Shown here: one piece after another, positions 3,377 to 45,730 of the stretch
Layout of the letters: each line of letters starts with the position of its first letter
Numbering within the stretch: position 1 is the first letter of the stretch
Source: Okeania sp. KiyG1
GTDB taxonomy: Bacteria; Cyanobacteriota; Cyanobacteriia; Cyanobacteriales; Microcoleaceae
Assembly (NCBI RefSeq): GCF_014132355.1
Contig: NZ_BLZO01000184.1
Location: forward strand, 1 to 64,000
Direction: 5' to 3'
DNA: 64,000 nucleotides
Translations under genes and position numbers: made by a program
Notes under the pieces: generated by a model
The model's input: the letters and a program-made list of their open reading frames with translations, nothing else
Told to the model about the DNA's origin: nothing
Database searches by the model: none

Positions 3377-4870
3377 ATGTTTATAACTGATTCTCAGCTA
3401 CTTTCTTATCAACGTTGTCCTAGAAAAGTATTTTTGGATACCTATGGAGATTTTACGCAACAAGATTCTCCTAGTGATTTTTTGCTGAAATTAATTAAAG
3501 ATAGTTCGGAATTTAGGTCGAGTATTATCAAGAATTATATTTATCAAAAGCCTGATTATCCTCGTGGAGATTTAATGGCAGGGGGAAAGGCTACTGAAGA
3601 ATTAATGGCAGCAGGTATTGATGTTATTTATCGGGGAATATTAATTATTCAAGAATCTTCAATCAATTCACTCCCACAAAATCAGACTATTAATTTTGTT
3701 AGCTATCCAGATTTATTGATTAAACAGCCTGGATATTCTCGATTTGGTGATTGGGTTTATATTCCTACAGATATTAAGTTAAGCAAACGTCCGAAATTAG
3801 AATATCAAATAGTTGCTACTTTTCATGCTCAAATATTAGCAAGTATTCAAGAAGTTTGGCCGGAAACTGCTTGGTTGATTCTCCGAAAGAAAGGGTTACA
3901 TAAGGTGAATTTAGAAAAGCGAATTGAGCAAATGCAGGAAACTATTTTTGAGTTAATTGCTATGTTGCAAAATTCTCTAGAACCAGAGGTATTTATTTCC
4001 CGTCAAAAATGTAATCTTTGTACCTGGTATAGTAGCTGTCATGCTGTTGCTGAAACTCAAAAACATTTATGTCTTTTGCCAGGAGTTACTTCTAATAGAT
4101 ATGCTGTGTTGAAGAGCTTGAATTTAACAACTTTAGAATCTTTGAGTCAAACTAATCCTGATGATTTAGAAAGTTACCCTGAATTTGTTGATGGAGTTGG
4201 AATACAAGTTGTCAAGCAAGCTCAATCTGTATGGGAAAATAAGGTGATTCTGAGAAATGAAACATTTGCTGAAGAAATAGATAGTGAAACTTTACCAATT
4301 AATTATTACAAATCAATTAAGCTCGTCAATGCTCCTGTAGAAATATACTTTGATATTGAAGCTCAACCAGATATTAATTTAGATTATTTACATGGTGTAT
4401 TAGTAGTTGATAAACGCCAAGATACCAAAAAATTTTATGTTCATTTAGCTGAAAATCCTTTAGATGAAGAATTGATTTGGTATCAATTTTTAGACTTAGT
4501 TTGGAAATATCCTATCGCTCCAATTTATCACTTCTGTGAATATGAAATTCAAACTGTAAGAAGATTAGCTCAACTTTATCAAACACCAGCTTATCTGTGG
4601 AAACCATTGTTGAAAAGATTTGTAGATATTCATAAAGTTGTTACTCAAACTATTATATTACCTGTAGAAAGTTATTCCCTCAAAAATATTGCTCGTTGGT
4701 TAGGTTTTGAATGGCGGAACCCCGAAGCTAATGGCGCTCAATCTGTTTGTTGGTATTCAGAATGGTTGAAAACAGGCGATCGCTCTTTGTTAGATGCAAT
4801 TATTATTTACAATGAAGATGATTGTTATGCTACTTATTATATTAAAGAATGGCTATTTCAATTGTTATAA
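3377..4870 (+). CDS. TM0106-type RecB-like / RNase H-like putative nuclease
   Basis: A 497-residue protein resembling the TM0106 family. The N-terminal half is Cas4/RecB-like with a conserved early Cys (YQRCPRK, about 14) and a Cys cluster CNLCTWYSSC (about 214-223), a pattern that in Cas4/AddB proteins binds an Fe-S cluster. The C-terminal half looks like a DEDD-type RNase H-fold exonuclease: IYFDIEAQ near 318 and YNEDDC near 480. Family function is inferred to be DNA processing or repair; the substrate is unknown. It is a single gene, divergent from the kinase with a gap of about 190 bp. The last 20 codons form one end of a 290-bp tandem repeat that continues downstream to about 5640, with fragments of this 3' end copied in it. 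Confidence 0.85.
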   Translation: MFITDSQLLSYQRCPRKVFLDTYGDFTQQDSPSDFLLKLIKDSSEFRSSIIKNYIYQKPDYPRGDLMAGGKATEELMAAGIDVIYRGILIIQESSINSLPQNQTINFVSYPDLLIKQPGYSRFGDWVYIPTDIKLSKRPKLEYQIVATFHAQILASIQEVWPETAWLILRKKGLHKVNLEKRIEQMQETIFELIAMLQNSLEPEVFISRQKCNLCTWYSSCHAVAETQKHLCLLPGVTSNRYAVLKSLNLTTLESLSQTNPDDLESYPEFVDGVGIQVVKQAQSVWENKVILRNETFAEEIDSETLPINYYKSIKLVNAPVEIYFDIEAQPDINLDYLHGVLVVDKRQDTKKFYVHLAENPLDEELIWYQFLDLVWKYPIAPIYHFCEYEIQTVRRLAQLYQTPAYLWKPLLKRFVDIHKVVTQTIILPVESYSLKNIARWLGFEWRNPEANGAQSVCWYSEWLKTGDRSLLDAIIIYNEDDCYATYYIKEWLFQLL

Positions 4871-5640
4871 GAAGGAAGAGGTAAGAAGGAAGAAGGAAGA
4901 AGTTAACAAGGAAAAAGTAATAAGCAATAAATAAGATACAAGAAGCTAACAATGAAGGAGTAAGAAGCAGTTATTCAATATTTTAGAATAAGGAAAAAGT
5001 AATCAGCAAGAAAGAATACAGAAGAAGCTAACAAGGAGGCAGAGAAGTAAGAAGGAAGAAGGAAGAAGGAAGAAGGAAAAAGTAATAAGCAATCAAGAAG
5101 ATGATTGTTATGCTACTTATTATATTAAAGAATGATTGTTACAATTTTTAGAAGGTTAAGAAGGAAGAAGGAAGAAGTTAACAAGGAAGAAGTTAACAAG
5201 GAAAAAGTAATAAGCAATAAATAAGATACAAGAAGCTAACAATGAAGGAGTAAGAAGCAGTTATTCAATATTTTAGAATAAGGAAAAAGTAATCAGCAAG
5301 AAAGAATACAGAAGAAGCTAACAAGGAGGCAAAGAAGTAAGAAGGAAGAAGGAAGAAGGAAGAAGGAAAAAGTAATAAGCAATCAAGAAGATGATTGTTA
5401 TGCTACTTATTATATTAAAGAATGATTGTTACAATTTTTAGAAGGTTAAGAAGGAAGAAGGAAGAAGTTAACAAGGAAGAAGTTAACAAGGAAAAAGTAA
5501 TAAGCAATAAATAAGATACAAGAAGCTAACAATGAAGGAGTAAGAAGCAGTTATTCAATATTTTAGAATAAGGAAAAAGTAATCAGCAAGAAAGAATACA
5601 GAAGAAGCTAACAAGGAGGCAAAGAAGTAAGAAGGAATTA
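4813..5640. repeat. 290-bp tandem repeat carrying the nuclease gene's 3' end (about 2.8 copies)
   Basis: The sequence ATGATTGTTATGCTACTTAT from the nuclease gene (4818) reappears at 5101 and 5391. The block AGAAGCTAACAATGAAGGAG occurs at 4941, 5231 and 5521, a period of 290 bp. The units also hold GAAGGAAGAAG microsatellite. Copies of the gene tail carry deletions (AAAGAATGATTG instead of AAAGAATGGC) and are not coding. This is a tandem duplication of a gene end plus intergenic DNA. Confidence 0.9.
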
Positions 5641-8357: not shown

Positions 8358-11291
8358 ATGAGTGTTAGAGTTCGTCTGGCCCCAAGTCCCACAGGAAACT
8401 TACATATCGGTACAGCCAGAACAGCTGTATTTAACTGGTTATTTGCCAGAAACCAGAAAGGAAAATTTATCCTCAGAATAGAAGATACAGATATAGAGCG
8501 ATCGCGTCCAGAATATACAGAAAATATTATGGAGGGATTGACCTGGTTAGGATTAGAATGGGATGAAGGACCATCCTACCAGTCTCAACGATTAGAATTA
8601 TATAAGACAGCTACTCAAAAATTACTAGACAAAGGATTAGCCTATCGCTGCTATTGTACAGCAGCAGAACTAGAAGAAATGCGGGAAGCTCAGAAAGCTA
8701 GAAAAGAAGCACCCCGCTACGACAACCGCCACCGTGACCTTACACCAGAACAACAAGCAGCTTTTGAAGCAGAAGGAAGACAGCCAGTAATTCGCTTTAA
8801 AATTGACAATGACCAAATAATTACCTGGAAAGACCAAGTTAGAGGGACAGTAACCTGGAAGGGGAGCGACTTGGGTGGAGATATGGTCATCTCCCGTGCT
8901 GCTAGTGGCAAGACAGTAGGACAACCCCTCTACAATATGGCAGTGGTAGTAGATGATATGGATATGGAAATTACCCATGTAATTCGTGGTGAAGACCATA
9001 TTGCCAATACAGCTAAACAAATATTACTTTATAAAGCCCTAGAGGGGAAAGTACCAGAATTTTCTCATACACCTCTAATTCTTAATCAAGAAGGACGCAA
9101 ACTTTCAAAACGGGATGGCGTAACTTCAATTTCTGATTTTAAAGAATTAGGTTTCATCCCAGAAGCACTAGCAAATTATATGTGTTTGCTTGGGTGGACA
9201 CCTCCAGACTCAACTCAAGAAATATTTACCCTGACAGAAGCAGCTCAACAGTTCTCTTTTGAGAGAGTGAATAAAGCAGGGGCGAAGTTTGACTGGAATA
9301 GGTTGGACTGGATAAATAGTCAATATTTACATAATTTACCAGTAGGAGAACTGACAGATAGATTAATTCCTGTTTGGCAAAAAGCAGGATATGAACTAGA
9401 CCCACAGAGCGATCGCCCTTGGTTAGAACAATTGGCCGCTTTGATTGGACCTAGTTTGACTCGCCTCACAGATGCAGTAGAAATGAGTAAGTTATTCTTC
9501 TCCCCCACTGTAGAACTGGATGCAGAAGCAATTGAACAAATGCAGAAAGAAGATGCTGTAAAATCTATTAATTCTATTATTGAGGGGATAGATAGTGATG
9601 CACCTCTGCGAGTGGGTGATGCACAAAAAATTATTAAACGGGTGACTCAGGCAATTAAAGTTAAGAAAGGCATTGTCATGCGATCGCTCAGGGCGTCTTT
9701 AACAGGTGCAATGCAAGGACCCGATCTAATTCAGTCATGGTTACTCTTGCATCAAAGGGGTTTTGATGTATTACGCTTCAAAAAAGCTATAGGTCAGGAG
9801 GTTGAAGAAAGCAAAAAAGTAGATGCTTCTGATAATAGTAATAAAGGGTTTGCTGAAATAAAAACAGCAACTTCAAAAACATCTGTTGCACCAAAACAAC
9901 AACCTCAGAAAATAAAAGCATCAAGTACTCTTGCTGGTGAGTCTCAAAGTTTTAAACCAACTATAGATAAAGCACAAGCAACAACTCCAACGGGTAAGTC
10001 TGAAGTTGTTGAACCTACTGTAGAGAAACAGAAACCAACTACGACTCCCGCAGGTGAAACTAAAGTTGTTAAACCAACTATAGATAAAGCACAAGTAACA
10101 ACTCCAACTGGTAAGTCTGAAGTTGTTGAACCTACTGTAGAAAAACAGAAACCAACTATAGATAAAGCACAAGCAACAACTCCAACTGGAGAAACTAAAG
10201 TTGTTGAACCTACTGTAGAGAAACAGAAAGCAACTACGACTCCCGCAGGTGAAACTAAAGTTGTTAAACCAACTATAGATAAAGCACAAGCAACAACTCC
10301 AACTGGTAAGTCTGAAGTTGTTGAACCTACTGTAGAGAAACAGAAAGCAACTACGACTCCCGCAGGTGAAACTAAAGTTGTTAAACCAACTATAGATAAA
10401 GCACAAGTAACAACTCCAACGGGTAAGTCTGAAGTTGTTGAACCTACTGTAGAAAAACAGAAAGCAACTACGACTCCCGCAGGAGAAACTAAAGTTGTTA
10501 AACCAACTATAGATAAAGCACAAGTAACAACTCCAACGGGTAAGTCTGAAGTTGTTGAACCTACTGTAGAAAAACAGAAAGCAACTACGACTCCCGCAGG
10601 AGAAACTAAAGTTGTTAAACCAACTATAGATAAAGCACAAGTAACAACTCCAACGGGTAAGTCTGAAGTTGTCAAACCAACTGTAGAAAAACCTTCAACA
10701 GCAACTCCAACAGTGACAACAACTCCCACAGGAGAAACTAAAGTTGTCAAACCAACTGTAGAGAAACCTCCAACAGCAACTCCAACAGTGGCAACAACTC
10801 CAACGGAAGAAACTAAAGTTGTCAAACCAACTGTAGAGAAACCTCCAACAGCAACAACTATTACTACAAAACCGGAAACCGTAGAACAAAAAGTTACTGT
10901 TCAAGTAGAAACCTCAACCTTAGATGACCAACAACCTGTAGATACAACAACTAATGAAAGCATTGAGAGCGATCAATTACAAAAGATTAAAGAAAAATTG
11001 GTCGATACTTTTGCTAACTTTCCTGATTACATTAGTCAATTCTATCAAACATATCAACGTCAACTTATAGTAATTGGTTCGCTGATATTAATCATATTAA
11101 CCTTTAGGTTAATTCTTGGTTTCCTAGAAGCTTTAGAAGGAATTCCTACTTTATCGACTAGCTTTGAATTGATTGGTATGGGATATTCAGTATGGTTTGT
11201 TTACCGTTATTTACTACGGAAATCTAATCGGCAAGAATTATTAGATAAAATTCAAGACATCAAAGCAGATATTGTTGGTAAAAAGTCTTAA
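8358..11291 (+). CDS. gltX: Glutamyl-tRNA synthetase with repeat linker and membrane CAAD domain
   Basis: It charges tRNA-Glu for translation, and in cyanobacteria also feeds tetrapyrrole synthesis through Glu-tRNA. Residues 1-480 are a class I GluRS: the HIGH-type signature [12 protein letters not shown] at the N-terminus and the KMSKS-type motif KLSKRDG near 255. It then departs from the usual length of about 480. A low-complexity linker of about 390 residues is made largely of a 39-residue repeat (core [18 protein letters not shown] and [18 protein letters not shown]). It is followed by a C-terminal domain of about 100 residues with two hydrophobic segments ([18 protein letters not shown], then [19 protein letters not shown]). 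This tail matches CAAD, the cyanobacterial synthetase-appended domain known to anchor some synthetases to thylakoid membranes. A single frame spans all parts. Confidence 0.97.
9957..10850 (+). repeat. 117-bp in-frame tandem repeats inside gltX
   Basis: CTATAGATAAAGCACAAG recurs at intervals of exactly 117 bp from about 10273 to 10624, with two earlier shorter-spaced copies. It ends in degenerate half-units (ACTCCAACAGTG..). Copies differ by only a few bases, indicating recent expansion or homogenisation. The antisense open frames over this region are by-products of the repeat. Confidence 0.9.
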
Positions 11292-12246: not shown

Positions 12247-12429
12247 TTAGTCTTCTATAAAATTACGCTTTTTTTCATCTTCAATCCACTTCTTAAAATA
12301 CTCAATTTCTTTTTCTACATAATCTTTGTCTTCCAGAAGTTTTTCTGTATTAAAAATTGGTCGTAATAGTAATGATTCAAGATGTTCTACGATTTTATGT
12401 GTTGCTTCAATATTCTTAGAGCTACTCAA
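12247..12429 (-). CDS. Probable C-terminal fragment of the upstream STAND protein
   Basis: 60 residues from a TTG, highly charged and helical (EKEIEYFKKWIEDEKKRN). The frame is open well upstream of this TTG and reads back through 12476 into the end of the large upstream protein. Adding one C (coding strand) in the CCC run at 12480-12482 changes its ending from KKLP-stop to KKLPLEPYVKND, which continues directly into this fragment. I therefore read it as the displaced C-terminus of the STAND NTPase and not an independent gene. An alternative is a genuine small protein with a TTG start; no ribosome site supports that. Confidence 0.55.
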   Translation of the reverse strand: MSSSKNIEATHKIVEHLESLLLRPIFNTEKLLEDKDYVEKEIEYFKKWIEDEKKRNFIED

Positions 12430-12476
12430 TATATAATCTTCTGAGGAAAGTTCCTTATCATTCTTAACATAAGGTT

Positions 12477-15400
12477 CTAGGGAAGTTTCTTAAAATCTTC
12501 AAATTTCTGATTGTACTTACAAAATAGATCGATAAATTGATAACGTCTTTCGTATGGAAATGTTGTAGTTACGCTAAACAATAATTGCATCAAATGAATA
12601 TCGTTATGTCTATTTTCAATCAGACTTTTTAGCAGTTGATTTTGTCTATCCTCAAAAACAACTTTCTCTTCTTCTGTTACTTCCAAAAAAAATATTCTTT
12701 CGAGGATAGTATTACTAAATCCAGAGTTAGATAATTCCTTTTCTTTCTGATAAATATGCTCAACTACTTGAGTGATTAATTCCTGATAATTTTCAGATTG
12801 CCAAAGAAATGTATAGTTTAGGTCATCTTGGAAATAAGGGGAGTTTGATAATTTTCTTTCCTCATCATATACCCAGTCAATATATTCAATTATGAAATGT
12901 TGGTCAACATTAAGAATGCGGATGAATATATCTTCAGAATTAGACGAGTATCCCCTGATTTTTTGATTTGATAAATATGCTTGTTTTAGTACATCAAGTT
13001 TTTCTGTGAATAATTTAATTAAAAGCTCATTGACCTGAGTGTAAGGATTAAATAAAAAATCGAAAGGACTTAAAAAATTTGTATAATTTGTCTGTTCATT
13101 AATTTTACTCAGAATAATTTTTGTTATCTGAGCAACCACATTTTTATCTAAGTGAAGATATTTGAGAAGAAAGTCAAAATATTGTGGTATTTCACTGAGT
13201 TTACTCTGCCGATATAAGTTATATAGTTGCTCTAAATAATCGGATGTAATTTTATCTTCAGGCAGTAAGTTGTAAAATCCAAATAACCATTTTCTTTTTG
13301 AAGCAAAATCAAATTGATTGAGCAATTCAAAAGCTTTTTCAACTCCAGAAATTTCTATTAATTTTTCAATTAATGTAAATAGAAAATAATTAAGTTTAAA
13401 TGGGTCGCCAAGATTGAGATAATATTTCAGCACATCTAAATAAAGCTCTGAATTTTTGCAGGCGATAAAAATAACTTCTGCTATTCTACCACTGGGAAAT
13501 TCAGAAGAGTAATGGTTTTTCTCTTTTGTTACAGCTTTTATCTCATGGCATTTAGCAAAGAAATCCTGATAATCCTTAAAATCGTAATTAGCAAAATATT
13601 CTTTGATTTGATTTTGCTTAAATTGCTCATATTCTTTCCCTTCTAAATAGCAGTTGTTTCTCTCATTCCAATTATCTGAAAGTATCCTATACACCTCATA
13701 AGTTCCATTGAGAAATCGTTCTCTTATTTCATTATTAAATTCAATTTGACGAGACTCTAGAAAATCCAAATATTTCTGAACAATAAGACAATGATAATAA
13801 TCTTGAGGATTTAAGTTATCTGTAAGAAATTTAAGCACTTCTACAGCATCTTGCTTAATAATTTCACCGACAGAAAACTTAGAATATGATTTACTATATT
13901 GATGAATTATATTGATTACTTCTTTCTCAAAAATATCAATCTGATAGAGCTGAAATATTCCCTGCCAAATTTTATTTCTTAAATCAAATAACTCCGGTGT
14001 AGGTTGTGGGGAAAATTGATGCCATAAACATAAAAATTCTCTGTTATTTTTCAGCTTAGGAGTATTAAATTGAAGATAGAGGTATTTTTCAGCTACACCA
14101 AAAAATAGTTTTGTGAATAATTCGTTTTTTCCTTGATTTACTTCTTCCAATAGCTTATCAATGACTATAGACTGACTAATAAATTTTGTTATGTAGGAAT
14201 CATGTTCAAATCCAAACACTTCAATAAGAAGGCGAAACACCTGTAATAGTTCCTGTGGTTTTTTTGTCAGATATTCAAACAGCAAATCTATAGCAATCTG
14301 AAAATTTTGTTCGTCAAAATTACTCGATAAACTAAGTAAGTCAAGAATAGAATATGGTGGAATGTCAATATTAGAATTAGACGGAATATCTAAGGTTGAA
14401 ATATCTACTGACTCGATTTCCATCTTGTCAATACAATTTTTAGCATATATGAGAATTTCTGTCTGTTTAAAAAACCAAAAAAGTTTCATCAGTTCGATAA
14501 AATTCTTCTTATTTCCTGCCTCCTCATAATTTTTCCAAAGTCTGTCTACATCTGGAGTAAGTATGTTGATAATCTTCTCACTATCAAAAGCACTTAAAAC
14601 AGGATTAAGAGCATCAACAAAATTATATTGAAACTGAGGAAAGAAATTATCTAAGAGAACGGAAAATTTCAACAATTTATCCTTGAAAAAAGTAAGATAA
14701 AACAGATATGTAGCCAGAACCTGGTCAGATATTCTGGCAATCTCATTTTCATATATATCTACCAACTCAAATTCATATAATTTACGAACTGCTTTCCATA
14801 AATTTTCCCTGTCAATATAAAATGTTGTTTGAATCTTTTCCATCATTTCATCGTTAGAGCAATCTACCACTTGGAAAAAAGCAACTATACCAGCAACTTT
14901 CAATAAACTTTCATCCTTAAAATCTGCAATATCTTCTCTAATTGAAGAATAATATATATCATAAACATCAGATACATTTTTAAGAGCTTCGACAGTTTTT
15001 TCTCCCTTTACTACTAAAGCAGTCATTATTGCCAGGCGAGGATTACCTTGAGCTATATCAACAATTCTTTCTATGTATAATTGATTCTGAATTTTGTATT
15101 CTTCTTTAACGAGTTGCTCAATTTGCTTATCTGTTAATGGGTTGATTTTTACTAGCTCTAAATTATTATCATAAGAACACACTACTTCTTTAATTTGCTC
15201 AACTGCATAGTCACGAACTGTAGCTATTATTTTAATTTGCTGATTTTCACGTTTATACAGAAGAAGATTAATAAAATGCTTAAATTCTTTGACTCGGTTA
15301 GCATCATCTACAAAAATTAGATAACTTCCCTCATCTGAAAAATAAACATGGATATCCCCAAAAATATCGACTCCTTGATCAAAAATACACTTAACTTTGT

Positions 15401-15998
15401 AGTCAGAATATTTCTCTACAAATTTCCTACAACACTCTAAAACAAGTCTAGATTTACCTACTCCTGCTTTACCAGAAACTATAACTAGATTATTTCCCTC
15501 AAGTCGTTGTAATATTTCCTTTATTTCATTTTCCCGAAAGTAAAACTTTGTATCTAGAGGAGCAACAATTTTTCTTTTATTATAAGTAGTAATAAACTCA
15601 TCAATATCAACTATTTGACCAGTATCTACCTCAACTCCTAGAAAATCTTTAGCAATACCAGGATAATTTTTATAAAGGTCAAAAGAAATAGAGTCAAGAC
15701 CAAATATATCAAGCTCAACTCCATACTTCTGACATTCCTCTTTCAGAGAATTTTCTTCTTTTGTACTCAGAGTAGAATTATGACATAAAACAATCTTTTC
15801 TATTTCTATTATTAGTACTCCAGTCTTTTCTTCATCAAAACATTTGTCGAGGTCTTTCTTAAATTTTTTGCAGACCCCTTTTTCCTCTGTTGTATACTCT
15901 GCCAAAATGTACTTTCCATTTTCCAGAATAATTAAAGTATCTGGAGTTCCTGTTCTTATTTTTTTAGTTCCCGATACAGACCCTAATGATTTAAGCAA
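12477..15998 (-). CDS. Large STAND-type NTPase with nuclease-like N-terminus (candidate defence protein)
   Basis: 1173 residues as read from a TTG. Near the N-terminus GTPDT and, about 12 residues later, ILAEYTT resemble the D and E-x-K-like parts of a PD-(D/E)XK nuclease. A P-loop NTPase follows: Walker A SGKAGVGKSRL at about 175-185 and Walker B YLIFVDDANR at about 226-235. The remaining 900 residues are helical, Leu/Phe/Tyr-rich and repeat-like without a named domain. This nuclease-NTPase-sensor layout is that of Avs/STAND antiviral proteins; the defence role is inference. Copies of the 5' end in the adjacent array show the true start should be the ATG at 16100-16102, giving MSKINEIQNKLKELSG; an A6 tract at 16013-16018 (A7 in one array copy) puts that start out of frame. 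A second frameshift lies near 12481. Confidence 0.8.
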   Translation of the reverse strand: MLKSLGSVSGTKKIRTGTPDTLIILENGKYILAEYTTEEKGVCKKFKKDLDKCFDEEKTGVLIIEIEKIVLCHNSTLSTKEENSLKEECQKYGVELDIFGLDSISFDLYKNYPGIAKDFLGVEVDTGQIVDIDEFITTYNKRKIVAPLDTKFYFRENEIKEILQRLEGNNLVIVSGKAGVGKSRLVLECCRKFVEKYSDYKVKCIFDQGVDIFGDIHVYFSDEGSYLIFVDDANRVKEFKHFINLLLYKRENQQIKIIATVRDYAVEQIKEVVCSYDNNLELVKINPLTDKQIEQLVKEEYKIQNQLYIERIVDIAQGNPRLAIMTALVVKGEKTVEALKNVSDVYDIYYSSIREDIADFKDESLLKVAGIVAFFQVVDCSNDEMMEKIQTTFYIDRENLWKAVRKLYEFELVDIYENEIARISDQVLATYLFYLTFFKDKLLKFSVLLDNFFPQFQYNFVDALNPVLSAFDSEKIINILTPDVDRLWKNYEEAGNKKNFIELMKLFWFFKQTEILIYAKNCIDKMEIESVDISTLDIPSNSNIDIPPYSILDLLSLSSNFDEQNFQIAIDLLFEYLTKKPQELLQVFRLLIEVFGFEHDSYITKFISQSIVIDKLLEEVNQGKNELFTKLFFGVAEKYLYLQFNTPKLKNNREFLCLWHQFSPQPTPELFDLRNKIWQGIFQLYQIDIFEKEVINIIHQYSKSYSKFSVGEIIKQDAVEVLKFLTDNLNPQDYYHCLIVQKYLDFLESRQIEFNNEIRERFLNGTYEVYRILSDNWNERNNCYLEGKEYEQFKQNQIKEYFANYDFKDYQDFFAKCHEIKAVTKEKNHYSSEFPSGRIAEVIFIACKNSELYLDVLKYYLNLGDPFKLNYFLFTLIEKLIEISGVEKAFELLNQFDFASKRKWLFGFYNLLPEDKITSDYLEQLYNLYRQSKLSEIPQYFDFLLKYLHLDKNVVAQITKIILSKINEQTNYTNFLSPFDFLFNPYTQVNELLIKLFTEKLDVLKQAYLSNQKIRGYSSNSEDIFIRILNVDQHFIIEYIDWVYDEERKLSNSPYFQDDLNYTFLWQSENYQELITQVVEHIYQKEKELSNSGFSNTILERIFFLEVTEEEKVVFEDRQNQLLKSLIENRHNDIHLMQLLFSVTTTFPYERRYQFIDLFCKYNQKFEDFKKLP

Positions 15999-18735
15999 CT
16001 TAACCTGTTCAATTTTTTATCAAGGTAAACATCAGCCAATTTTTGAAGCTCACCACCACTTAATTCTTTGAGTTTATTTTGAATCTCATTAATTTTTGAC
16101 ATAGTAATTCTATAGAGATAAAAATAATATATTTTTCCTCAACTTAAAAGTAGCGATCGCCTTTCTCTATTCTCTCTATTTTAGCAATTAAATTTTTACT
16201 CTCAACTGCCAAAAAGTCATATCTGGACTTCCTTCTTCTTATTTTTAGTTCCCGATACAGACCCTAATGATTTAAGCAACTTAACCTGTTCAATTTTTTA
16301 TCAAGGTAAACATCAGCCAATTTTTGAAGCTCACCACCACTTAATTCTTTGAGTTTATTTTGAATCTCATTAATTTTTGACATAGTAATTCTATAGAGAT
16401 AAAAATAATATATTTTTCCTCAACTTAAAAGTAGCGATCGCCTTTCTCTATTCTCTCTATTTTAGCAATTAAATTTTTACTCTCAACTGCCAAAAAGTCA
16501 TATCTGGACTTCCTTCTTCTTATTTTTTTAGTTCCCGATACAGACCCTAATGATTTAAGCAACTTAACCTGTTCAATTTTTTATCAAGGTAAACATCAGC
16601 CAATTTTTGAAGCTCACCACCACTTAATTCTTTGAGTTTATTTTGAATCTCATTAATTTTTGACATAGTAATTCTATAGAGATAAAAATCATATCTTCTT
16701 CCTCAACTTAAAAGTAGCGATCGCCTTTCTCTATTCTCTCTATTTTAGCAATTAAATTTTTACTCTCAACTGCCAAAAAGTCATATCTGGACTTCCTTCT
16801 TCTTATTTTTTTAGTTCCCGATACAGACCCTAATGATTTAAGCAACTTAACCTGTTCAATTTTTTTATCAAGGTAAACATCAGCCAATTTTTGAAGCTCA
16901 CCACCACTTAATTCTTTGAGTTTATTTTGAATCTCATTAATTTTTGACATAGTAATTCTATAGAGATAAAAATAATATATTTTTCCTCAACTTAAAAATA
17001 GCGATCGCCTTTCTCTATTCTCTCTATTTTAGCAATTAAATTTTTACTCTCAACTGCCAAAAAGTCATATCTGGACTTCCTTCTTCTTATTTTTTTAGTT
17101 CCCGATACAGACCCTAATGATTTAAGCAACTTAACCTGTTCAATTTTTTATCAAGGTAAACATCAGCCAATTTTTGAAGCTCACCACCACTTAATTCTTT
17201 GAGTTTATTTTGAATCTCATTAATTTTTGACATAGTAATTCTATAGAGATAAAAATAATATATTTTTCCTCAACTTAAAAGTAGCGATCGCCTTTCTCTA
17301 TTCTCTCTATTTTAGCAATTAAATTTTTACTCTCAACTGCCAAAAAGTCATATCTGGACTTCCTTCTTCTTATTTTTTTAGTTCCCGATACAGACCCTAA
17401 TGATTTAAGCAACTTAACCTGTTCAATTTTTTATCAAGGTAAACATCAGCCAATTTTTGAAGCTCACCACCACTTAATTCTTTGAGTTTATTTTGAATCT
17501 CATTAATTTTTGACATAGTAATTCTATAGAGATAAAAATAATATATTTTTCCTCAACTTAAAAATAGCGATCGCCTTTCTCTATTCTCTCTATTTTAGCA
17601 ATTAAATTTTTACTCTCAACTGCCAAAAAGTCATATCTGGACTTCCTTCTTCTTATTTTTTTAGTTCCCGATACAGACCCTAATGATTTAAGCAACTTAA
17701 CCTGTTCAATTTTTTATCAAGGTAAACATCAGCCAATTTTTGAAGCTCACCACCACTTAATTCTTTGAGTTTATTTTGAATCTCATTAATTTTTGACATA
17801 GTAATTCTATAGAGATAAAAATAATATATTTTTCCTCAACTTAAAAATAGCGATCGCCTTTCTCTATTCTCTCTATTTTAGCAATTAAATTTTTACTCTC
17901 AACTGCCAAAAAGTCATATCTGGACTTCCTTCTTCTTATTTTTTTAGTTCCCGATACAGACCCTAATGATTTAAGCAACTTAACCTGTTCAATTTTTTAT
18001 CAAGGTAAACATCAGCCAATTTTTGAAGCTCACCACCACTTAATTCTTTGAGTTTATTTTGAATCTCATTAATTTTTGACATAGTAATTCTATAGAGATA
18101 AAAATAATATATTTTTCCTCAACTTAAAAATAGCGATCGCCTTTCTCTATTCTCTCTATTTTAGCAATTAAATTTTTACTCTCAACTGCCAAAAAGTCAT
18201 ATCTGGACTTCCTTCTTCTTATTTTTTTAGTTCCCGATACAGACCCTAATGATTTAAGCAACTTAACCTGTTCAATTTTTTATCAAGGTAAACATCAGCC
18301 AATTTTTGAAGCTCACCACCACTTAATTCTTTGAGTTTATTTTGAATCTCATTAATTTTTGACATAGTAATTCTATAGAGATAAAAATAATATATTTTTC
18401 CTCAACTTAAAAATAGCGATCGCCTTTCTCTATTCTCTCTATTTTAGCAATTAAATTTTTACTCTCAACTGCCAAAAAGTCATATCTGGACTTCCTTCTT
18501 CTTATTTTTTTAGTTCCCGATACAGACCCTAATGATTTAAGCAACTTAACCTGTTCAATTTTTTATCAAGGTAAACATCAGCCAATTTTTGAAGCTCACC
18601 ACCACTTAATTCTTTGAGTTTATTTTGAATCTCATTAATTTTTGACATAGTAATTCTATAGAGATAAAAATAATATATTTTTCCTCAACTTAAAAGTAGC
18701 GATCGCCTTTCTCTATTCTCTCTATTTTAGCAATA
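15960..18735 (-). repeat. Ten-copy 283-bp tandem array of the STAND gene's 5' end
   Basis: The start-codon context (minus strand TTACTATGTCAAAAATTAAT) occurs at 16102, 16383, 16666, 16950, 17233, 17516, 17799, 18082, 18365 and 18648, a spacing of 281-284 bp. Each unit holds about 95 bp of upstream sequence with one HIP1 site, the ATG, about 50 codons nearly identical to the gene's 5' end, then a short divergent tail. The unit next to the gene is the one fused to it. Copies differ mainly in homopolymers: the A tract after codon 27 is A7 only in the copy starting at 16950 and A6 in all others; a second A tract is A5 in one copy and A7 in the rest. A degenerate partial unit sits at 18735-18795. 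Confidence 0.97.
16708..16950 (-). CDS. 80-residue open frame in the only in-frame array unit
   Basis: In this unit the A7 tract keeps the frame open, so it reads MSKINEIQNKLKELSGGELQ, continues through KSLGSVSGTKKIR exactly as in the large protein, then diverges to a Lys/Arg-rich tail ending at the HIP1 site. The other nine units stop after about 40 residues. It may be translated, but it is more simply a by-product of the duplication. It is valuable because it shows the probable ancestral N-terminus of the neighbouring STAND protein. Confidence 0.3.
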   Translation of the reverse strand: MSKINEIQNKLKELSGGELQKLADVYLDKKIEQVKLLKSLGSVSGTKKIRRRKSRYDFLAVESKNLIAKIERIEKGDRYF

Positions 18736-19170
18736 CAGATAAAAATAATTATTCTTCCTCAACTTAAAAGTAGCGATCGCCTTTCTCCCCTATCTCTATT
18801 TTAGATGAAATCTGGTTATACAATTATCCCACTCTCTACTTCCATTCAACGCAGACAAAAAATGTCGGTATATCCCCAGATAATTCCCACTCTTATTCTT
18901 CCTTTCTTCTTTCTCTTTTCTCCTGAATAATACGATAACTAACTATCCAGAATATTTTGTAAAAATTTGCCCCTATAAATATGGCTGAAAACTATAGCAG
19001 TCGAAGGAAAAGGCGCGGAAATATCAAAAGCTTAAAACTCAGACAACACAAAATTTTTTCTTCTGTCCTAGATAACTAAAGCCTTCTATCCTAGATAACT
19101 AAAGCCTTCCTCCTTCTACTAACTTTAGACAATAAAAAAGAGCTAGAGATACTTACACAAATAAACATCC
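18736..19170. other. Intergenic region, no gene seen
   Basis: It contains a degenerate array unit, then AT-rich DNA and a dispersed repeat (TAGCAGTCGAAGG followed by CTTAAAACTCAGACAACACA) that recurs near 21407 and, inverted, near 29613. A CCTAGATAACTAAAGCCTTC direct repeat lies at about 19067-19108. Confidence 0.6.
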
Positions 19171-19349
19171 CTAACTCTTAGTTTTTTCCACTGAATATTT
19201 TATAAACTTATCCTTTTCTTTTGGGTTTAATAACCCATCATCACTGGCGTTTTTTACAATTGGTTGCGGTTTGTAGACGGGGAGCAGCTTGTCGAAGACT
19301 ATCCCCTCCACTTTTTCCAATTTCAGTCCTTCTTCCTTCTTCCTTATTC

Positions 19350-20105
19350 TCACGTTTCAGAAGCAGAAGATTGACTGAGAAAAGGAGTCAAATAAGCAAC
19401 CAAAGCTCCAATCAGAAAAGCTGCAATATTACGAGTCAATGGTAACCAATCTGAAGTTCTCGTAACTACTGGGCCAATTCCGAAAGCAATAAACAAAATT
19501 CCCCACAATGGAGAAAATATTAACGCCCACTGCCAAGAAAAAGCTTGGTCCGGTTTCCGGGGTTGAGCTGCAAAACCACAAACTACTCCACCAATAGCTG
19601 ATGTAATTAAAGTTAAAATCCATTGCTCTCTTGGTAAACCTGGTACAACGTTACAACCACCTTGACGTAAACAAGTTTTAATAGATTCTAATGATTGGAT
19701 AATAGATTGGTCTTCACCTTGGTCTCGCACAAAAAATTGATTACCGTAGCGAGTTTGTAACTCTACCCAAAATGTCCGAGGTAGGAATTCATAGAGAGCA
19801 CGACCCACATTAAAGTTCAGAATATTACCGCCACGGGAGTCCGCTACTAACAAGACACTCTTATTATCAAGTTGCCAAAAATCTTTAACTGCTCTACCTG
19901 GAGTACGGTCGAATTGAGTCAAAACCCTCAGTTTCCAGCCAGTTTCAGTTTCAAATTGCTCTAAATCTTTGGCTAGTATATCTTCTTGAATGTCTGTTAA
20001 GTTTCTTGCTAAGTCAATAATTGGTGTTTTTTGTTCGGGGAGTAACTGAGGATTATCATAAGCGTTGGCAACTCCTGGGGTTAGAGCAAAAATCGATAAT
20101 GCCAC
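19350..20105 (-). CDS. TPM domain (Psb32-like) membrane protein
   Basis: 251 residues from a GTG. After a signal sequence ending near PGVANAYDNP, a TPM domain covers about 25-150 (LLPEQKTPIIDLARNLT, VLLVADSRGGNILNFNVG, LQTRYGNQFF). Two or three C-terminal membrane segments follow (about 166-183, 192-210, 224-243). The family includes Psb32, implicated in photosystem II protection and repair at the thylakoid; that role here is inference. The chosen start cuts the signal peptide short. An ATG at 20152-20154 followed by Lys/Phe codons would give a textbook signal peptide (MKKFFKKISLLITAVFVALS), but the T7 run (coding strand) there is one base too long. A frameshifted or mis-sequenced start is likely. 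Confidence 0.85.
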   Translation of the reverse strand: MALSIFALTPGVANAYDNPQLLPEQKTPIIDLARNLTDIQEDILAKDLEQFETETGWKLRVLTQFDRTPGRAVKDFWQLDNKSVLLVADSRGGNILNFNVGRALYEFLPRTFWVELQTRYGNQFFVRDQGEDQSIIQSLESIKTCLRQGGCNVVPGLPREQWILTLITSAIGGVVCGFAAQPRKPDQAFSWQWALIFSPLWGILFIAFGIGPVVTRTSDWLPLTRNIAAFLIGALVAYLTPFLSQSSASET

Positions 20106-36719: not shown

Positions 36720-38000
36720 CTTTGGAAACCCTAATCCCTACTTAGGGATTGAAACATTAACTGTATTACTATCATAGATGTAATAGGTAAGGCTTTGGAA
36801 ACCCTAATCCCTACTTAGGGATTGAAACCGTTACGCAGGCCACTTGACCAGTCACTTGTTTTTGCTTTGGAAACCCTAATCCCTACTTAGGGATTGAAAC
36901 CATTTGGTGGAGAGTTGACAAAGTAATCCTGATATCCTTTGGAAACCCTAATCCCTACTTAGGGATTGAAACTTCTTGTGCTAACCTGTTGCTTTCTGAG
37001 TTTGGGTCCTTTGGAAACCCTAATCCCTACTTAGGGATTGAAACACAATCAAGAGGCTATATTGGAAACCTCATAAGCAACTCCTTTGGAAACCCTAATC
37101 CCTACTTAGGGATTGAAACCAGTGATCCAGCAAGACCTAAGTATAGGTTCTTCCACTTTGGAAACCCTAATCCCTAATTAGGGATTGAAACAACAGATTT
37201 AACAAAAGAAGTAGAGGAATTTGAGCTACTTTGGAAACCCTAATCCCTAATTAGGGATTGAAACAAAATCCTTTGTTCTCAGACATAAAATTTGCTCCAA
37301 ACTCTGGAAACCCTAATCCCTACTTAGGGATTGAAACTCTCCTCTAAATGAGATAAGGTTTACATTTTTTTATACTCTGGAAACCCTAATCCCTACTTAG
37401 GGATTGAAACTTTTTACTCACGATAAATCAATCCTCTCAGAAATTCTGACTCTGGAAACCCTAATCCCTACTTAGGGATTGAAACTATTTCAAGCATTTG
37501 CTCGAATGAAATTTGGTTTGACATTCTCTGGAAACCCTAATCCCTACTTAGGGATTGAAACGATTTTCCACCACGCTGGTGGAAGGTGGGTTGAAAGCTC
37601 TGGAAACCCTAATCCCTACTTAGGGATTGAAACTCTTGTTGTTGTTTCCAATATTCAGACATTAGCAAACTCTGGAAACCCTAATCCCTACTTAGGGATT
37701 GAAACTGTTCTATCATCATTCGACGCTTCAACTCTTTAAGAACTTTGGAAACCCTAATCCCTACTTAGGGATTGAAACTCTATTGGTTCACCAAGACTGA
37801 CACCAGGAGTATAATTTCCTTAATTATTAATTATTAATTATTAATTATTAATTATTGAAAAACCCTAATCCCTACTTAGGGATTGAAACTCTATTGGTTC
37901 ACCAAGACTGACACCAGGAGTATAATTTCCTTAATTATTAATTATTAATTATTAATTATTAATTATTGAAAAACCCTAATCCCTACTTAGGGATTGAAGC
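36720..38000 (+). CRISPR. CRISPR array: 15 full 36-nt repeats, 14 normal spacers, plus an altered distal end
   Basis: The repeat (36 nt) begins CTTTGGAAACC, has the palindrome CCCTACTTAGGG and ends GGATTGAAAC. Starts: 36720, 36793, 36865, 36937, 37009, 37084, 37156, 37229, 37302, 37375, 37450, 37526, 37598, 37670, 37743. Spacers are 36-40 nt. Repeats 1-8 and 15 begin CTTT, 9-14 begin CTCT; repeats 7-8 have TAATTAGGG. After repeat 15, a 111-bp unit (spacer-like sequence, TTAATTA heptamers, then a repeat lacking its 5' end) occurs twice (37779-37889, 37890-38000); the last repeat ends GAAGC. No cas gene lies in the window. Confidence 0.97.
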
Positions 38001-44984: not shown

Positions 44985-45730
44985 TTGAAGAATTCAGAAT
45001 TTAGAATTCAGAATTTAGAATTGAGAATTCAGAAGTTATTTTTGTAACGGGAATTTGAGCAACCCTCCAAAAATATTTCGCCTTAAAAGGGGGGGTTTTA
45101 GACCCATATTATTCAGAATTTAGAATTGAGAATTCAGAATTTAGAATTGAGAACTTATCTTTTGTAACTTCGCCTTAAAAGGGGGGGTTTTAGAACCATA
45201 TTATTCAGAATTGAGAATTGAGAATTCAGAATTTAGAATTGAGAACTTATCTTTTGTAACTTCGCCTTAAAAGGGGGGGTTTTAGACCCATATTATTCAG
45301 AATTTAGAATTGAGAATTCAGAATTGAGAATTGAGAACTTATCTTTTGTAACGCAGATTTGAGCAACCCTCCAAAAATATTTCGCCTTAAAAGGGGGGGT
45401 TTTAGAACCATATTATTCAGAATTGAGAATTGAGAATTCAGAATTTAGAATTGAGAACTTATCTTTGTAACTTCGCCTTAAAAGGGGGGGTTTTAGACCC
45501 ATATTATTCAGAATTGAGAATTGAGAATTCAGAATTTAGAATTGAGAACTTATCTTTTGTAACGCAGATTTGAGCAAACCTCCAAAAATATTTCGCCTTA
45601 AAAGGGGGGGTTTTAGACCCATATTATTCAGAATTTAGAATTGAGAACTTATCTTTTGTAACGCAGATTTGAGCAACCCTCCAAAAATATTTCGCCTTAA
45701 AAGGGGGGGTTTTAGACCCATATTATTTTG
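44985..45730. repeat. Seven-copy R5 tandem array
   Basis: CGCCTTAAAAGGGGGGGTTT occurs seven times (around 45083, 45172, 45265, 45383, 45472, 45596, 45690), separated by CAGAATTTAGAATTGAGAAC-type satellite and, in long units, GTAACGCAGATTTGAGCAA. Short (about 92 bp) and long (about 120 bp) units alternate. Single R5 copies occur at about 24850, 39850, 47090 and 50130. Confidence 0.9.

Follow-up and report, generated by a model that had tools for sequence, protein, structure and literature searches.

Tandem copies of a gene start upstream of a STAND NTPase gene in Okeania: a possible stack of promoters

Promoter-region variable-number tandem repeats (VNTRs), or minisatellites, are tandem repeats lying upstream of genes whose unit number varies between genomes, and in the silent-cassette systems, such as pilS/pilE and vlsE, gene copies supply variant protein segments. 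Here, we describe a tandem array found in a stretch of 64,000 nucleotides from Okeania sp. KiyG1 (contig NZ_BLZO01000184.1, positions 1 to 64,000; this whole stretch is hereafter the window), in which the upstream region and the first codons of an nSTAND3 NTPase gene are repeated directly upstream of the gene itself. Judged by its layout, the closest known analogue of this array, yet not one of the same kind, is the NsiR1 array of Nostoc sp. PCC 7120, for which the relevant passages of PMC9045159 and PMC8406250 describe 12 tandem copies upstream of hetF, each with its own promoter, the seven central copies being identical and the peripheral ones divergent. According to the same passages (PMC9045159, PMC8406250), the copies are small RNAs of ~60 nt, transcribed opposite to hetF from DIF1-type promoters; the array is treated further in parts of PMC4734099 and PMC6133370.

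Like the NsiR1 array, that of Okeania belongs to a filamentous cyanobacterium and consists of tandem units upstream of a gene, with one promoter or promoter-like core per unit, an identical middle and a divergent edge. Unlike it, the Okeania units are mostly 217 or ~284 bp long, are read toward the gene and copy its own promoter region and first codons; moreover, the conserved Okeania cores lie on the minus strand, as does the gene, whereas the NsiR1 copies are antisense to the neighbouring gene. The locus shares with pilS/pilE and vlsE the presence of partial gene copies near an expressed gene and a possible transfer of copies into it, but the Okeania copies carry the start region and are mostly broken, rather than being intact in-frame donors, and their transfer is only suggested. 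As in promoter-region VNTRs, a tandem repeat stands upstream of a gene and its unit number differs between genomes; here, however, a complete promoter-like core and the gene start are present in every full unit, and within one clade that core is conserved. The encoded protein resembles the Avs4-type antiviral STAND proteins in being a STAND NTPase and in the best fold match of its N-terminal model, which is itself of low confidence; a PADLOC search at E<=0.1, however, returned only a weak mad8 match and no Avs match, and an antiphage role of the Okeania protein is putative. No description of the array was found in the open-licence literature of PubMed Central (PMC).

Our preferred reading, to which we assign a probability of about 0.5, is that in the window's clade the array may work as a tandem promoter or regulatory block. 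In an Avs-like STAND gene, the promoter and the first ~55 codons would have been duplicated in tandem, the repeat being old, and the array would have been retained upstream of that gene in Okeania-type cyanobacteria. Each full unit would initiate transcription toward the gene, the array would be made up of promoters stacked in tandem, or of regulator sites that overlap them, and the number of units, shifting by unequal crossing over, would set expression or its noise.

The array and its promoter-like core

An earlier note on this stretch had reported ten tandem copies of the 5' end of the gene upstream of it, and ten are indeed found. Tandem Repeats Finder (TRF) gives, between 15938 and 18734, a period of 283 bp x 9.9 copies with 99% matches, and on the minus strand ten head-to-tail, ATG-anchored units stand directly upstream of the nSTAND3 gene and read toward it. 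Their ATGs lie at 16102, 16383, 16666, 16950, 17233, 17516, 17799, 18082, 18365 and 18648, with a spacing of 281-284 bp. Gene, array and cores are laid out as follows.

12477..16102, minus strand: nSTAND3 NTPase gene, as assembled open from TTG 15998 (1173 aa), with ATG 16102 out of frame
12247..12476, minus strand: C-terminal part of the nSTAND3 gene, which follows a one-base homopolymer difference and reads in a different frame
15938..18734, minus strand: tandem array of ten ATG-anchored units
15938..16220, minus strand: gene-proximal unit, formed by the start codon (ATG 16102) of the gene itself with its promoter region and first codons
16178..16205, minus strand: core of the gene-proximal unit, exact copy
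16459-16486, 16742-16769, 17026-17053, 17309-17336, 17592-17619, 17875-17902, 18158-18185 and 18441-18468, minus strand: the other exact cores in the window
16786..17068, minus strand: sole unit with an A7 tract, with an open frame of 80 aa from ATG 16950
17352..18483, minus strand: four identical units (ATGs 17516, 17799, 18082, 18365)
18484..18734, minus strand: outermost unit (ATG 18648), its leader cut at the array edge and lacking the -35 half of the core
18733..18804, minus strand: 72-bp partial copy of the leader at the outer edge, 90% identical

A full unit of the window is composed of a leader of ~118 bp and a gene start of ~165 bp (55 codons), and not of 95 bp and 50 codons as first described. 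Four of the ten units are identical (ATGs 17516-18365), five others deviate from those four at 1-5 positions, and the edge unit at 18648 is off them at 22 positions, nearly all within its leader. The differences consist of a C/T site, three further substitutions in one unit, one A6/A7 and one A7/A5, so that homopolymer length is not, as had been claimed, what mainly distinguishes the units. These are contiguous, derived from the gene, without spacers and present at one locus only, in agreement with the earlier view that the array is neither a transposon nor a CRISPR array.

The argument for a promoter block centres on a core of 28 bp, TTGAGA-N16-TAAAAT (sequence TTGAGAGTAAAAATTTAATTGCTAAAAT), of which exact copies occur in 9 of the 10 units of the window, all on the gene's strand and pointing toward the gene. 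The core matches the sigma-70 consensus at 10/12 positions and has, in addition, a TG preceding the -10. When 25 genomes were scanned with <=3 mismatches allowed, 30 copies were found in 5 genomes, all at the STAND locus (27 exact, 2 with one mismatch and 1 with two); as a regulon motif the core had no occurrence outside that locus in the same 25 genomes. On the plus strand, between 16096 and 18671, TTGACA-N18-AAAAAT sites, one per unit, overlap the start codon; these are probably due to chance, since the start-codon change present in many relatives' units would alter them.

The genomes compared with that of the window (G000, 11 Mb) include its genus mates G002 (Okeania SIO2B3), G003 (O. hirsuta PAB10Feb10-1), G004 (SIO2C9) and G005 (SIO1I7); G017 (SIO3I5) and G022 (SIO2F4), which are Okeania by name but are classed in another genus (g7); and G012, the Microcoleaceae metagenome-assembled genome MO_207.B10. 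In G002-G005, over 18 non-edge units and gene starts taken together, the 28 columns of the core show 2 parsimony changes vs 22.3 expected, the expectation being derived from the remainder of the unit, and 0 of 213 other alignment windows fell below 8 changes. The first tests of the core (a mean difference of 0.008 vs 0.115; 2 vs 23 changes) were set aside as biased, the units having been picked by a motif inside the core; because of this bias the tests were redone with units classed by the array-edge junction, the four edge-type units being those whose leaders are cut by it.

By contrast with the core, the copied coding parts are decaying: in G002-G005, 0 of the 18 upstream units whose start can be read are open from an ATG past codon 50, and in the window 1/9. 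A core that stays near-invariant despite broken reading frames favours a tandem promoter or regulatory block. The multiplication of promoters, which had been suggested earlier, thereby gains support: in the window's clade no part of the unit has changed less than the promoter-like core. In G017 the segment is unconserved; the constraint on the core is seen in the window's clade and not in the 217-bp array. Units coding for peptides were considered and rejected, the frames being broken in the array units. The ratio of nonsynonymous to synonymous changes is 0.57 (0.32-1.27) in units, for which the bootstrap used 40 of 103 pairs, vs 0.64 (0.34-1.35) in intact gene starts, a comparison that shows no difference and is uninformative. 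We propose that the repeated start codons and the short reading frames are by-products of the array.

Arrays in relatives, their age and turnover

A protein search of 60 genomes, G000 included, matched 12, of which seven besides G000 hold clear orthologues (79-87% identity) and four are distant; the orthologue piece of G022 is without its 5' end. With an N-terminal query 10/149 genomes matched, the two additional ones being G078 and G103 at 63-65% identity. The orthologue is preceded by unit DNA in G002, G003, G004, G005 and G017 (one genome per species), mostly as ~284-bp units in G002-G005 and as 217-bp units in G017, whereas G012 has a single copy and no array; in G022, one 217-type unit is followed by an N at which the sequence changes. 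The copy number of the gene start among Okeania-type cyanobacteria reaches ~15. The ATG-anchored spacings are 268-285 in G002, 275-347 in G003, 265-285 plus two gaps of ~512 bp with N in G004, 271-285 plus one of 510 with N in G005, and mostly 217 in G017. N gaps interrupt the arrays of G004, G005 and G017, which makes the unit numbers of the relatives uncertain. TRF reported arrays in G002, G004, G005 and G017, and in G003 only a 74-bp repeat; on the G078 and G103 stretches it found no such array. A query with the start region gave one match each in G078, G103 and Nitrosovibrio. Related strains having the gene and no array, which the earlier note had named among the findings that would refute it, are therefore found both close by (G012) and at a distance (G078, G103, Nitrosovibrio), and five close relatives have arrays. 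Among 62 family genomes, unit DNA occurs at the STAND locus only, apart from short weak matches, and none was found in G001, which belongs to the genus but has no match to the STAND gene. The 72-bp partial leader also recurs at the outer array edge in G002, G003 and G005.

For the history of the array, 49 start regions were extracted (N-cut units without a readable start being uncounted) and a tree was built from 46, three having been dropped for N. In this tree the units of G002-G005 intermingle irrespective of species, the outermost ones of G002, G003 and G005 falling together, and the window's ten units cluster with each other. Constraining the units to one clade per species was rejected for G002 (p 0.005), G003 (p 3e-6), G004 (p 3e-5) and G005 (p 2e-5). 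Since the units of G002-G005 are not grouped by species, the array is older than those species or alleles have been exchanged among them. The array of the window, whose units cluster together, has recently been homogenised.

Some gene starts look like array units. The gene start of G005 has an insertion common to array units of several species, and the G002 gene carries an ATG-to-ATT change as array units do; in the tree, G005_gene pairs with G004_u4, and G002_gene is placed among array units. Such common lesions suggest an exchange between array and gene. However, a constraint uniting the gene starts of seven genomes as a clade was not rejected (p 0.065), nor was one for the five of the genus (p 0.093), and a chimaeric assembly could likewise yield gene starts resembling array units, chimaeric joins being possible given the N gaps inside the arrays of G004, G005 and G017. 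In a weaker form, the idea that starts recombine with the gene survives on these common lesions, but the tree test falls short of significance.

The STAND gene and its assembled reading frame

The product had been described as a STAND nuclease-NTPase, and the second half of this name stands: the nSTAND3 domain PF20720 is found at 36.6 bits, with a cut-off of 27.2. For the nuclease the indication is weak and comes from Foldseek, in which an AlphaFold model of the N-terminal part (192 residues, five sequences; pLDDT 54.6, low confidence) matched best Avs4 (PDB 8dgf, E 0.005) and then the restriction endonuclease EcoT38I, none at E<=0.001; because the model is poor, this result is a lead only. 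A Pfam search with the first 150 residues of the protein gave no match, nor did the G012 orthologue against PDB sequences at E<=0.1.

In the seven genomes with a readable 5' end (the window's, G002-G005, G012 and G017), the ATG is in frame in 4 (G003, G004, G012 and G017), and the frame of the gene body runs without a premature stop in G002, G004, G005 and G012; an unconstrained gene would be expected to gain 5.9-10 stops along each of six end branches. Pairwise dN/dS values of 0.51-0.77 would fit weak constraint or fast evolution, and fast evolution can be shown by defence genes.

In the window, 9/10 units have an A6 tract, the first unit of the gene included, which puts the ATG out of frame with the gene body as assembled. 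From the A6/A7 difference the earlier note had derived a reservoir of in-frame and out-of-frame starts acting as a switch. The difference is present in the sequence, but it is quite probably a sequencing error and not biological. ORFs (open reading frames) of >=150 aa on the contig of G000 (C184) were compared with those of the corresponding stretches in G004 and G005. With G004 queries 6/38 were frameshifted in G000 and with G005 queries 6/41, vs 1/39, 0/42, 0/46 and 1/44 in reverse and control tests. Seven of these frameshifts are distinct, each being a one-base loss, five in a homopolymer and two beside one; one of them is at the 3' end of the STAND gene, whose last ~75 residues are thereby shifted into another frame, and two of the genes affected we take, from their sequence, to be those of a ribonucleotide reductase and a penicillin-binding protein. 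One-base homopolymer losses are the usual signature of uncorrected long reads. The A6/A7 frame switch is not supported, given these losses in six other genes and given that the genes of six relatives read through the tract without a break in frame.

On the side of the array away from the gene lie two further features.

19138..19179, minus strand: terminator-like hairpin between the TPM-domain gene and the array (one site vs 0.9 expected in shuffles)
19350..20105, minus strand: upstream neighbour, TPM-domain protein gene

The same TPM-domain gene (86-97% identical) is found on the same strand upstream of the locus in G002, G003, G004, G005, G012, G017 and G022. In Nitrosovibrio sp. Nv6 (L067 9110-9471), a 42% identical homologue of the STAND gene starts ~430 bp after the gene for transfer-messenger RNA (tmRNA); tmRNA genes are a common insertion site of mobile islands.

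Several other repeats are present in the window. At 4814-5637, an array of 290 bp x 2.9 has units repeating the 3' end of a 497-aa ORF (3377-4870), plus AAGAAGG-type simple repeats, and at 45077-45727 units of ~92 bp contain nested 7-bp repeats. A CRISPR-like array at 36720-37998, with 72-73 bp spacing and a repeat ending in GGGATTGAAAC, has in its last part an exact 111-bp tandem duplication with TTAATTA runs. The 977-aa ORF at 8358-11291, presumably glutamyl-tRNA-synthetase-like to go by its sequence, has a long C-terminal extension of 57-117-bp in-frame repeats, and similar repeats of other lengths stand at the matching end of the relatives' stretches.

Weighing the explanations

Several observations weigh against a promoter or regulatory block. 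With the four edge-type units kept, the contrast of the core falls to 15 vs 27 changes, most of the excess coming from one row, G002_u4, whose leader is non-homologous there. In the 217-bp array of G017 (12 usable units) the matching segment has 18 changes vs 16.3 expected, and its -10 often reads TCAAAT. Invariance extends to the 16-bp spacer as fully as to the hexamers, beyond what a bare promoter needs, and the rates of change assume a tree, yet the units recombine. A promoter scan gave 20 sites vs 13.3 +/- 3.2 in shuffles, ten of them being the one-per-unit sites on the opposite strand. Finally, the G003 orthologue has a stop after codon 371 and that of G017 a deletion (924 aa), and since several orthologues are damaged, some lineages may have little use for the gene.

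The main rival, and a tenable one, is the runaway duplication already envisaged in the earlier note, that is, a neutral, functionless, minisatellite-like array growing and homogenising by slippage and unequal crossing over, in which the gene start was included accidentally. It owes this rank to the abundance of long tandem arrays in the G000 genome: a 410-kb sample (the window and 20 stretches) has 48 TRF rows with a period of >=60, corresponding by our count to ~27 distinct arrays, among them in-gene repeats and a CRISPR-like array. One of them, that at 4814-5637, repeats the 3' end of the preceding gene, so that duplication at gene edges may be a habit of G000, and whatever its role today, the array is likely to have originated neutrally. 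The lack of a conserved RNA structure in the units and the unconserved core of G017 point the same way, whereas the persistence of arrays at one locus across species and the contrast, in the window's clade, between a 28-bp core that hardly varies and the decaying rest of the unit argue for the promoter or regulatory block. The array is real and old within the group, and it probably began as a neutral duplication.

Recombination of damaged start cassettes with the gene start, turning the gene off and on, would account for the lesions that G005 and G002 gene starts have in common with array units and for their placement among units in the tree; we consider it improbable, given that gene starts as one clade were not rejected, that N gaps allow chimaeric joins, that the window's own A6 is probably an error and that no on/off pair of strains was seen among the compared genomes. 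Still more doubtful is an array of small-RNA genes like that of NsiR1, each unit yielding a short RNA in sense with the 5' end of the gene. The anatomy is alike, with tandem units bearing a promoter-like core, several of them identical in a row and one at the edge divergent, but the terminator scan found no terminator-like site inside the window array, and alifold gave no conserved fold on the leaders (z -0.7 and -0.6 in two groups; z -3.5 for the pooled leaders, yet with only a 3-pair hairpin). Rfam at E<=1 had no match in the array, its three sub-threshold snoRNA matches falling inside the STAND gene. An assembly artefact, for which one may invoke the several one-base homopolymer losses on the contig and the N gaps in three relatives' arrays, is hardly credible: five other assemblies hold related arrays with different, mutually diverged units, and one-base losses do not create 283-bp repeats. 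The existence of the array is well supported, the exact unit numbers are not.

Two cautions apply to this locus. The homopolymer "switch" that drew attention to it is probably an error, and findings based on reading frames in contig C184 of G000 need comparison with relatives first, as one-base losses break several conserved genes. In its strongest form, which we hold to be unlikely, the promoter block would be a selected stack of variable number controlling how much of an antiphage STAND protein is made, unequal crossing over altering the number of promoters and sometimes bringing array lesions into the gene start, with heritable high, low or off states as a result. More generally, costly innate-immune genes need dose control, and an array retaining its promoter cores at one locus in several species as the coding copies decay would be a natural rheostat based on promoter number and reset by ordinary recombination.

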